DNA of 64,000 bases from Leucobacter tenebrionis (GTDB lineage: Bacteria; Actinomycetota; Actinomycetes; Actinomycetales; Microbacteriaceae): contig NZ_CP082322.1 in NCBI RefSeq assembly GCF_019884725.1, positions 992,001 through 1,056,000 of the forward strand. The letters run 5' to 3'. How positions within the stretch are numbered: the first letter of the stretch is position 1; each line of letters begins with the position of its first letter. The notes under the pieces were generated by a model that was not told the DNA's origin, searched no databases, and saw nothing but the letters and a program-made list of their open reading frames with translations. The translations under genes were made by a program, and so were the position numbers. Of the stretch, positions 16,982-21,175 are shown piece by piece.

Positions 16982-17419
16982 ATGACCACCCCGAACCCTC
17001 CCCAGCAGCCAGAACGCAGCGCCCCGTCCCCGACCGCGCCGCAGTACTCGCAGACCCCGCAGGGCGGCGCGCCCCAGGCGAGCACGGCGGCACCCCGGTA
17101 CCAGCAGCCCGCGCAGCAGGCCCCCTACCGCCCGCAGCCGGCCACCGCGACGACGCTCGGCGCCACCAACACGTACGCCGTGCTGGCCGTCATCTTCGGC
17201 TTCCTGGTGCCCATCGCCGGCATCGTCTTCGGGCACATGGGCCTCTCCCAGATCAAGCGCACCGGCGATCCCGGCCGAGGCCTGGCGCTGACCGGCCTCA
17301 TCGTGGGCTACGCCTACTTCGCCCTCATCGCGATCCTCATCTTCCTCTACATCAGCTTCTTCGTGATGATGTTCGCGGCCATGGGCAGCGCCTTCTCCAG
17401 CAGCGACCTCTACTACTGA
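16982..17419 (+). CDS. DUF4190 domain membrane protein (first of three)
   Basis: This 145-residue protein has a Pro/Gln-rich cytoplasmic tail of about 60 residues, then two transmembrane helices. Between them lies the DUF4190 signature GHMGLSQIKRTG. The C-terminus is short and acidic (SSSDLYY). ATG at 16982 has GAGGAG upstream. The family is abundant in actinomycetes and has no known function. It is followed after 48 bp by a paralogue with the same layout, and a third copy lies at 19.5 kb on the other strand. Confidence 0.85.
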   Translation: MTTPNPPQQPERSAPSPTAPQYSQTPQGGAPQASTAAPRYQQPAQQAPYRPQPATATTLGATNTYAVLAVIFGFLVPIAGIVFGHMGLSQIKRTGDPGRGLALTGLIVGYAYFALIAILIFLYISFFVMMFAAMGSAFSSSDLYY

Positions 17420-17895: not shown

Positions 17896-19176
17896 ATGCC
17901 CCAGCGCCCGAAGAGCGCGGCCCCCTCGGCTTCTCCGGGATCCGCCCCACGCAGCGTGGCTCAGGAAGCCCCGGGCTGGCGAGAACTCGCCGCGCCGGCG
18001 GGTGCCGCAGTGCTCGAACGCATCTCAGCGGGTATCGCAGCCGGGCGCACGCTCGATCAGCTCTCCCGCTCTCTGCGCGCCGAGGGCGCCGACCCCGCGC
18101 TGCTCGCCGCTGCGCTGACGCAGACGGAGCTGCGCGGCCGCGCCGTCGCGAAGTTCGGGGAGGCCGCGAACTCGATGCTCTTCACCCGGGCCGCGCTCGA
18201 GCAGGCGACCCGATCGCGCGTGGCCCGGCTGCACGCCGAGCGGTTCGTCTCGGCGGGCTGCCGGTCGGTGGCCGATCTCGGCTGCGGCATCGGCGCGGAA
18301 TCACTCGCGTTCCTGGCAGCCGGCCTCGAGGTCCGCCCCGTGGAGCTCGATCCGCTCACCGCTGAGTTCGCGCAGCACAACCTCTCAGCAGCAGCGGGCG
18401 CTCGCGGCGTCGCCGCTCCGCTCGTGCTCGTAGGCGATGCGGAATCGCTGGGACCGGGCGACGCCGACGCCGTCTTCCTCGACCCCGCCCGGCGCACCGC
18501 GGGGCACAGCAGCACCCGCAGGCTCGCCTCGCCCGACGATTACTCGCCCTCACTGGACTTCGCGTTCGACCTCGCACGTCGGCATCCCGCGGGCATCAAG
18601 CTCGGGCCGGGCCTCGACCGGGAGCTGATCCCGGAGGACGCCGAGGCGCAGTGGATCTCGATCGACGGCCAGCTCGTCGAGACCGGCCTCTGGTTCGGTG
18701 ACGCGGCGCGCCCCGGCGTGCGCCGCTCGGCGCTCGTGCTGCGCGGGGCCGAGGATTCAGCAGAACTGACCGCGGCGGACGATGCCGAGGACGTCGCAAC
18801 GCGGCCGCTCGGCGAATACCTCTACGAACCCGACGGCGCGGTGATCCGCGCTCGCCTGATCGGCACACTCGCCGAGCGGCTTCACGCGGGCATGGTCTCC
18901 GATGGCATCGCGTATCTCACCGGCGACGAACTCGTCGACACGGCCTTCGCCGATGCCTTCCGCGTCATCGAGCGACTGAGCTCGCGGGAGAAGGATCTGC
19001 GCCGCGCGCTCGCGGCCCGCGACATCGGGGCACTCGAGATCAAGAAGCGCGGCGCCGACGTCGACCCCGCGGCGCTGCGGCGCAGGTTGAAGCTCCGAGG
19101 ATCTCGGAGCGCGACGCTGCTCCTCACCCGCGACGAGCTCGGCAAGCACGTCGCTCTGCTCGCCGAGCGCTGCTGA
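17896..19176 (+). CDS. Class I SAM-dependent methyltransferase with THUMP-like C-terminal domain
   Basis: This 426-residue protein carries the SAM-binding motif DLGCGIGAES (127-136), the acidic ribose ligand in RPVELDP and a motif IV of the form DAVFLDPARR (191-200). A C-terminal domain follows with KKRGADVDPAALRRRLKLRG, typical of THUMP-like methyltransferases in actinomycetes. The DPAR motif and the domain suggest RNA rather than protein as substrate, but no target is known. The ATG at 17896 starts 20 bp after the DUF4190 gene. It ends before a large palindrome. Confidence 0.78.
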   Translation: MPQRPKSAAPSASPGSAPRSVAQEAPGWRELAAPAGAAVLERISAGIAAGRTLDQLSRSLRAEGADPALLAAALTQTELRGRAVAKFGEAANSMLFTRAALEQATRSRVARLHAERFVSAGCRSVADLGCGIGAESLAFLAAGLEVRPVELDPLTAEFAQHNLSAAAGARGVAAPLVLVGDAESLGPGDADAVFLDPARRTAGHSSTRRLASPDDYSPSLDFAFDLARRHPAGIKLGPGLDRELIPEDAEAQWISIDGQLVETGLWFGDAARPGVRRSALVLRGAEDSAELTAADDAEDVATRPLGEYLYEPDGAVIRARLIGTLAERLHAGMVSDGIAYLTGDELVDTAFADAFRVIERLSSREKDLRRALAARDIGALEIKKRGADVDPAALRRRLKLRGSRSATLLLTRDELGKHVALLAERC

Positions 19177-19292
19177 CGCCTTCACACCGCGTGCTTCGCA
19201 CCGCCCCGTGCCCACGTCATACCCGTTCCGTGCCCCACGTCACACCCGCCCCGCACTCGCCCCGTCGCAGGATCCACACGGGGTCCTGGCGC

Positions 19293-19331
19293 CGAGACCG
19301 CCTCTCGCAGTAAGCCCCAGAGGCGGTCTCG
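19293..19331. terminator. 13-bp hairpin after the methyltransferase gene
   Basis: CGAGACCGCCTCT (19293-19305) pairs perfectly with 19319-19331 around a 13-nt loop. It lies about 120 bases after the stop codon. Confidence 0.45.
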
Positions 19332-19410
19332 ACAGCGGGGAGGAGGCTCGACAGCGGGCGGCCGTCTCGACGGCGGGAGGCGGTTTCGACGACGGAAAGG
19401 AGAGCGGGAA

Positions 19411-19474
19411 GGGGCGAGCCTTGAGCGGGTCGGGTCCGGAACGATCCGGACCCGACCCGCTCAAGGCTCGCCCC
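19411..19474. repeat. Perfect 30-bp-arm palindrome with 4-nt loop
   Basis: Bases 19411-19440 and 19445-19474 are exact reverse complements separated by ACGA. The arms are GC-rich and start GGGGCGAGCC. It lies between two convergent genes and could be a two-way terminator, but it is about twice the usual length and lacks T-tracts. Confidence 0.85.
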
Positions 19475-19517
19475 CGCGGCTCAGTAGTTCAGGGTCGCCC
19501 CGCGGCTCAGTAGTTCA
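19475..19517. repeat. Duplicated tail of the DUF4190 gene
   Basis: A 17-bp segment (CGCGGCTCAGTAGTTCA) occurs at 19475-19491 and again at 19501-19517. The second copy contains the last codons and stop of the DUF4190 gene, so a 26-bp tandem duplication includes that gene's end. Confidence 0.75.
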
Positions 19518-19938
19518 CGTCCGAGCAGGAGACCGTCTGGCCGGCGATCTCCACGAACTCGGCTCCGTTCATGCACTGCTGCACCGCGTCGACGCCCGCA
19601 CCCAGCGCCCAGATCACGGTTATGGTGACGATCGCGCCGATGATGAGGCCGACGATGGAGGTCACGAGGCCCGTGATCGAGAACGCCTTGGGCTGCTTCT
19701 TCACGAGGGCGATGATGCTCAGCACGAGTCCGACGAGCGCGAGGCCGACGCCGAGGAACGGCACCCAGCTGAGCACGAGGCCTGCGATGCCGAGCGCCAT
19801 ACCGGTGATGGCGAGCGCCTTCTTCGGCTGAGCCGGAGCGGCTCCGTAGGCGGGGGCCGCAGGCTGCGCGGAGGGAGCCGGCGGCATGGGAGGGACGGGG
19901 TTCGAGGACGGCTCGTTGCCGGGCTGCGTATCAGACAT
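19507..19938 (-). CDS. DUF4190 domain membrane protein (third of three)
   Basis: This 143-residue protein has a Pro/Ala-rich N-terminal tail of about 45 residues and two to three hydrophobic helices (about 48-68, 70-88, 96-120). A short extracytoplasmic C-terminus has two Cys residues that could form a disulfide. The central IIALVKKQPKAFSITGL segment replaces the QIKRTG loop of the other two copies. ATG at 19938 has AAGGAG upstream. It is convergent with the methyltransferase gene and has no known function. Confidence 0.82.
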   Translation of the reverse strand: MSDTQPGNEPSSNPVPPMPPAPSAQPAAPAYGAAPAQPKKALAITGMALGIAGLVLSWVPFLGVGLALVGLVLSIIALVKKQPKAFSITGLVTSIVGLIIGAIVTITVIWALGAGVDAVQQCMNGAEFVEIAGQTVSCSDVNY

Positions 19939-20062: not shown

Positions 20063-21145
<1,083 letters not shown>

Positions 21146-21175
21146 ATGCCCTCTCCAAACCATCGTTTCAGCGTC

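Follow-up and report, generated by a model that had tools for sequence, protein, structure and literature searches.

What is a perfect palindrome of 64 bp doing between two converging genes of Leucobacter tenebrionis? The palindrome lies in a 64-kb stretch of DNA (the window, by which we mean the whole stretch analysed), and a first-pass annotation had offered several answers: a very strong two-way terminator, a cruciform, or the trace of an inversion or duplication. We consider it probable that the palindrome is a shared, bidirectional RNA 3'-end hairpin between the two genes, most likely an unusually long but ordinary two-way transcription stop. The support comes from the exact palindrome, its position, the recurrence of a hairpin in the same spacer of relatives and a change in the core that preserves pairing. 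The features of the locus are given in Table 1.

Table 1. Features of the spacer and its flanking genes (positions in the window)
Feature	Position	Strand	Remarks
THUMP-like-domain methyltransferase (presumed), convergent gene 1	17896..19176	+	PF18096, E 3.1e-20; exact start uncertain
Tandem repeat, 23-nt unit	19206-19248		
Second, weaker hairpin	19293..19331	.	13-bp arms, 13-nt loop; 116 nt past methyltransferase stop
Degenerate 19-nt tandem repeat	19320..19390	+	3.7 copies
21-nt block	19409..19429	+	AA plus 19 left-arm nt; absent from L005, whose flank there can be aligned
Perfect palindrome	19411..19474	.	30-bp arms, loop ACGA
Palindrome core	19423..19463	.	Orthologous in G047 (L004) and G041 (L005)
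26-nt tandem duplication	19464..19517	+	Contains outer right arm; repeats the membrane-gene end including its stop codon
Small protein, membrane-type by eye, convergent gene 2	19507..19938	-	No Pfam match at E 0.001
tsaD	20063..21163	-	PF00814, E 4.4e-90; next after membrane-type gene

The palindrome is exactly what the first-pass annotation had described, with perfect 30-bp arms and a 4-nt loop. All 30 bases of the arm at 19411-19440 are complementary to those of the arm at 19445-19474 (30/30, 100%), and the bases just outside (A and C) are unpaired. It is far beyond chance: about 2e-11 perfect 30-bp arms with a loop of 3-12 are expected in 64 kb, and 30 dinucleotide-Markov simulations of the window yield arms of 12 at most. 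Folded as RNA, the 64-mer reaches -73.2 kcal/mol on the + strand and -74.1 kcal/mol on the - strand. The 131-nt region around it has a folding z of -10.06, and none of 200 shuffles folds equally well. Elsewhere in the window hairpin arms reach 13, 14, 14, 18 and 19 bp, which makes the palindrome an extreme within a class. Rfam models give no match at gathering score between positions 17000 and 22000 of the window.

The flanking genes do converge, as had been claimed, and leave a spacer of 330 bp. The product of the first we take, from its sequence, to be a methyltransferase; the second has no Pfam match at E 0.001. In many relatives tsaD adjoins this gene pair. The smaller repeats said to lie nearby are also there, namely an inverted repeat of 13 bp, two tandem repeats with units of 23 and 19 nt, and a tandem duplication of 26 nt. 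The membrane-gene stop is 32 nt away from the palindrome, across the 26-nt duplication; the methyltransferase stop, to which the weaker hairpin is nearer, is 234 nt away. The stable, GC-rich stem-loop of a canonical intrinsic (L-shaped) terminator is present. A U-tract directly after the stem is absent and there are no terminator-like matches; the 8 nt after the stem hold one T on the + strand, as in U-poor (I-shaped) terminators, and three T on the - strand, at the borderline of the count used for Streptomyces.

The ends of the weaker hairpin, CGAGACCGCC and GGCGGTCTCG, recur in similar hairpins elsewhere in the genome, and by eye the whole (CGAGACCGCC...GGCGGTCTCGAC) resembles hairpins around position 1501 in L159, L161 and L163. 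AGGCGGTCTCGA has 10 exact copies in the genome (control 0). Since three of these (L159, L161, L163) lie in like hairpins, the hairpin at 19293-19331 probably belongs to a small repeat family. The 64-bp palindrome was considered as a member of the AGGCGGTCTCGA family and ruled out, all 10 copies having been checked.

Are long perfect hairpins peculiar to this spacer? In a 464-kb sample of the genome (the window and 20 further stretches) we find perfect arms of at least 14 at 20 places: 9 in convergent spacers, 7 in tandem spacers, 2 in divergent spacers, 1 at a stretch edge and 1 in a gene, these classes being approximate since the genes of the sample were called by a simple script. Three simulations of the same sample give no arm above 13. 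The palindrome is the longest of the 20, so the rarity that had been claimed for it holds for its length and not for its kind. Arms of at least 14 occur in 9 of 48 convergent versus 7 of 148 tandem spacers (Fisher p-value 0.0045); with the palindrome itself excluded, the convergent count is 8 of 47 (p-value 0.011). Four further Leucobacter genomes, sampled at 400 kb each, are similar, with 13, 15, 16 and 17 such arms. We see the striking palindrome as the long tail of a habit, the carrying of long perfect hairpins, that is found in all five Leucobacter genomes sampled and, in this genome, mostly in convergent and tandem spacers. U-tracts are scarce throughout: among 27 non-genic hairpins with arms of at least 12, the highest count on the better side is 5 T in 8 nt, reached by a single hairpin.

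The mispairs of these stems carry some information on whether they act as RNA. On the coding strand of tandem spacers, G.U pairs outnumber A.C mismatches 16 to 5 (p-value 0.027), as expected of RNA structure. In convergent spacers, where the choice of strand is arbitrary, the order is reversed, 9 to 21 (p-value 0.043). The two classes differ (p-value 0.0017), convergent spacers leaning towards A.C. A G.U pair read from the opposite strand becomes an A.C mismatch, and for this reason we considered selection for strictly Watson-Crick stems in convergent spacers. It is not supported: the two kinds together are not rarer there (30 of 544 pairs) than in tandem spacers (21 of 442).

Several other hairpin families came to light. 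One, dispersed and palindromic, is built around GCGAGACTGACTGTTTCAG and has 38 pattern matches in the genome at up to 3 mismatches (control 0), many as inverted pairs and some at 18-bp steps; it includes hairpins at 425-485 of the window, at L061 8954-9002, at L065 760-812 and in the spacer at L065 18306-18540. A second, likewise dispersed and palindromic, is built around GCGGAGTCCCGAATTGCTGG and is found near L053 18719, L057 3011 and L071 12407; its 44 pattern matches (3 mismatches or fewer, control 1) frequently form inverted pairs whose starts are 36 bp apart. Palindromes with TGTAGACCTCTCGCACCG in the intergenic spacers L064 9948-10911, L067 10654-11026 and L068 13337-14155 are likely a third. 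Two related long hairpins (CACCGATCT...AGCACACCGA) lie about 8 kb apart at L060 6910-7258 and 14840-15188, in spacers called convergent. Finally, the L005 hairpin 26 nt past the methyltransferase stop and the one at L070 17575-17637, both very long and from different species, show a loose resemblance by eye (GGGGTCA.TTT...CGTGTC) and may be a shared element or a pair of transposon ends.

Does the same spacer carry a hairpin in relatives? The methyltransferase is found in 52 of the 54 genomes of the genus, from which 50 loci were used (G002 and G010 were left out). At 38 of these a located membrane gene is convergent with the methyltransferase; the 12 loci with no located membrane gene do not enter the hairpin count. 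Among the 26 orthologous spacers of at least 60 bp, 18 have a hairpin with a score of at least 12 and 8 have none. For 21 of the 26, at most one of 50 shuffles matched the hairpin score, and the control gene segments (ten random placements per locus) reach a score of 12 at none of the 26. There are 12 spacers shorter than 60 bp, of which 10 are under 20 bp and were left unscanned; the 2 scanned have no hairpin of score 12.

What recurs is the hairpin and its place. The sequences of the hairpins at orthologous spacers are mostly unrelated: 145 of the 153 pairs formed by the 18 hairpins have no 10-mer in common, and the other 8 share one. Perfect palindromes occupy the same spacer in L005 (L. 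chironomi; 26-bp arms) and L028 (Leucobacter sp. PH1c; 31-bp arms). Among 14 listed hairpins whose perfect arms measure at least 13, 11 have their end 10-20 nt from the stop codon of the membrane gene. Distances to the methyltransferase stop range, over all 14, from 14 to 411 nt, so that the element seems to be anchored to the membrane gene. Arm length of 30 is not required, since 11 of the 14 have arms of only 13-20 bp. A scan reaching beyond Leucobacter, from 20 nt before to 300 nt after the methyltransferase stop, counted perfect arms and not imperfect stems; within the best 80 of 169 loci, 11 have a perfect arm of at least 11 in this range, namely 6 of the 21 titled as Leucobacter and 5 of the 59 others. 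Features expected of a bidirectional terminator that can be read from sequence are found here: a position between convergent genes, pairing possible on both strands and, in 18 of 26 spacers, a hairpin at the orthologous place.

Loss of SbcCD was considered as a reason why long palindromes persist, and is not supported. SbcD (TIGR00619) has no match in the L. tenebrionis genome (G000); over the 54 Leucobacter genomes, 19 have some match and 7 pass the curated cut-off. Five of these seven have a spacer below 60 bp and no hairpin at the locus, and the other two carry one, with 18-bp arms in L033 and a score of 13 in L051; relatedness could explain this lean. In the 400-kb samples, perfect arms of at least 14 number 13 and 15 with SbcD (G011, G019) and 15, 16 and 17 without (G000, G047, G045); for arms of at least 20 the numbers are 0 and 2 with it and 4, 1 and 4 without. 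There is no clear difference between genomes with and without SbcD.

How did the palindrome come to be so long? The two closest relatives by methyltransferase, L004 and L005 (78% each), both have its core, which in L005 sits in a second hairpin. Over the 19 core pairs in three sequences, 52 of 55 cells are paired (94.5%) and 3 are unpaired. Two pairs are changed on both sides, and none is at any of six slid registers; with three sequences and a structure drawn from the window, 44 of 500 shuffles reach two such double changes.

Outside the core, the left arm tells a different story in L005, which lacks the 21-nt block. Once the block is taken out, an alignment of the left flank to L005 reaches a score of 12 (0 of 5000 shuffles), and 18 of 5000 shuffles are as good when the hairpin's own GCGGG is left out; these counts are flattering, because the block was picked by eye before the flank was tested. 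That 19 nt of the block mirror the right arm follows from the perfection of the palindrome, and the independent part is the alignable flank in L005. The left flank of L004 outside the core does not align (1617 of 5000 shuffles as good), so the case for template switching rests on one relative and is the weaker for that. The right outer arm and the corresponding position in L005 have a 7-nt word in common, which 42 of 5000 shuffles equal. The left side thus probably arose from the right by inverted copying, the pattern that template switching would leave. Beside the block, at 19402-19408, is a second GAGCGGG, and a deletion in L005 between the two copies is a possible alternative to a gain of the block.

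It is tempting to hypothesize that one template switch carried a copy of 19 nt from the right side to the left and so extended a core stem of less than 20 bp to a perfect 30-bp palindrome, and that Leucobacter gene-end hairpins are renewed and kept perfect in this way, not by slow compensatory substitution. We advance this tentatively, with more doubt than conviction. If true, a terminator would have been caught lengthening in one mutational step, and renewal of this kind would leave unrelated yet perfect hairpins in the same spacer of related species. The earlier suggestion of an inversion or duplication is partly right: a portion of the left arm looks as if copied in inverted form from the right side, and the end of the right arm lies in the 26-nt tandem duplication. 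Template switching is reported to be able to create perfect stems in one event (PMC8794818). In the hairpins described there, as here, one arm appears to have been copied, inverted, from sequence close to the other, and the stem is perfect; those are in RNA genes, whereas here the event rests on one alignable relative and the direction of copying is presumed. Among the matches listed in open-licence literature, no title or opening of an abstract describes this locus or the growth of a bacterial terminator by template switching, and no Leucobacter Term-seq study was found there.

We propose the following model. The left-going transcript of the membrane gene and the right-going transcript of the methyltransferase would each fold the same 30-bp stem on leaving RNA polymerase. 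The stem may stop or stall the polymerase, as proposed for the U-poor "I-shaped" terminators of GC-rich bacteria, or it may mark the endpoint of 3'-to-5' exonuclease trimming that follows Rho termination. Either way, each transcript would be kept out of the opposite gene. The unusual length of the stem may derive from a template switch during replication in which the left arm was templated by the right side. Of the functions first suggested, the two-way terminator is the best supported, by position, recurrence in relatives and the pair-preserving change, although a proper U-tract is missing and its being "very strong" is conjecture.

A sub-case of the 3'-end hairpin, whose odds overlap with those of the general proposal, is that the stem does not itself terminate but is a barrier that shields both mRNAs at their 3' ends once Rho has ended transcription further downstream. 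This is a real possibility, if not the one on which we would settle. The missing U-tract is consistent with it, as are the Rho-dependent 3' ends of E. coli, which are reported to carry a stable upstream stem-loop that is protected from exonuclease (PMC8269248), and the genome has a Rho match of 372 bits, below the curated cut-off of 509 (of 14 controls, 12 matched and 8 were over the cut-off). Sequence alone would not separate self-termination from protection of ends made by Rho, and the short distance of the sister hairpins to the membrane-gene stop suits either. It is improbable that the palindrome is a mutational product only, owing both its origin and its perfection to template switching or arm conversion and having no selected function. 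The left-arm block lacking in L005, where the flank can be aligned without it, and the adjoining 26-nt duplication fit such an origin, but it leaves unexplained the recurrence of hairpins in the spacer of relatives, their spacing of 10-20 nt from the stop and their scarcity in genes.

Could the palindrome act as DNA, as a cruciform or a protein-binding site? Its perfect dyad symmetry and 4-nt loop would suit this, and the G.U excess of tandem spacers is missing from convergent ones; yet that excess in tandem spacers speaks for RNA, and a protein site would not be expected to share no 10-mer in 145 of 153 pairs of spacer hairpins. We regard a DNA-level role as quite unlikely. Rarer still in our estimation is the chance that it is a copy of a dispersed palindromic repeat or the trace of a mobile element. 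Such families do exist in the genome, some hairpins of other spacers belong to them, and the smaller hairpin of this very spacer resembles hairpins at three other places. For the palindrome itself the idea is largely refuted: no second copy is found in its own genome by DNA search or with a degenerate pattern allowing 3 mismatches, in a DNA search of 40 genomes (its own, 24 of the genus, 15 of the order) it matched only itself, and its core is orthologous at the same place in two other species. Palindromes can also be mis-assembled, and the first-pass annotation had advised a check for this. An artefact is extremely unlikely, because the genome is a single contig and because two other assemblies have different perfect palindromes (26- and 31-bp arms) in the same spacer. 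On balance, an RNA-level element at the 3' ends of both genes is the favoured reading, and the locus offers a compact natural test case of how GC-rich bacteria stop converging transcription and of how such hairpins arise.

How does this element compare with known terminators? Canonical bidirectional terminators have an A-tract before the stem and a U-tract after it. Like these, the palindrome is one hairpin between convergent genes, positioned for both strands; unlike them, it has neither tract. Inverted repeats at gene ends are known from E. coli, where the longer ones are reported to be mostly parts of intrinsic terminators (PMC6060812). Paired changes are documented in the terminator stems of Bacillus cereus (PMC5381666), and inverted-repeat arms near terminators are described as less variable than other arms within the species studied (PMC13155455). 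In Streptomyces clavuligerus there is a class of highly structured, U-lacking transcript ends, which the authors read as I-shaped terminators or Rho-dependent ends (PMC8269248); in S. avermitilis U-lacking ends are reported as weaker terminators than U-rich ones (PMC8780764). A review states that the I-shape predominates among the intrinsic terminators of M. tuberculosis and that intrinsic terminators are scarce in mycobacteria, where Rho dominates; termination without U is disputed, the same review citing titles both for a requirement of the U-tract and for its dispensability with the mycobacterial polymerase (PMC12288462). The palindrome shares with the U-poor "I-shaped" terminators of mycobacteria and the highly structured, U-lacking ends of Streptomyces a stable GC-rich stem, a short loop, a place near the gene end and the absence of a U-tract on the + strand. 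It differs from them in its 30 perfect pairs and in being common to two convergent genes, and from the Streptomyces ends in its three U in 8 nt on the - strand, which would be U-rich by the Streptomyces count. The locus is probably a known kind of element, exceptional in length and perfection.
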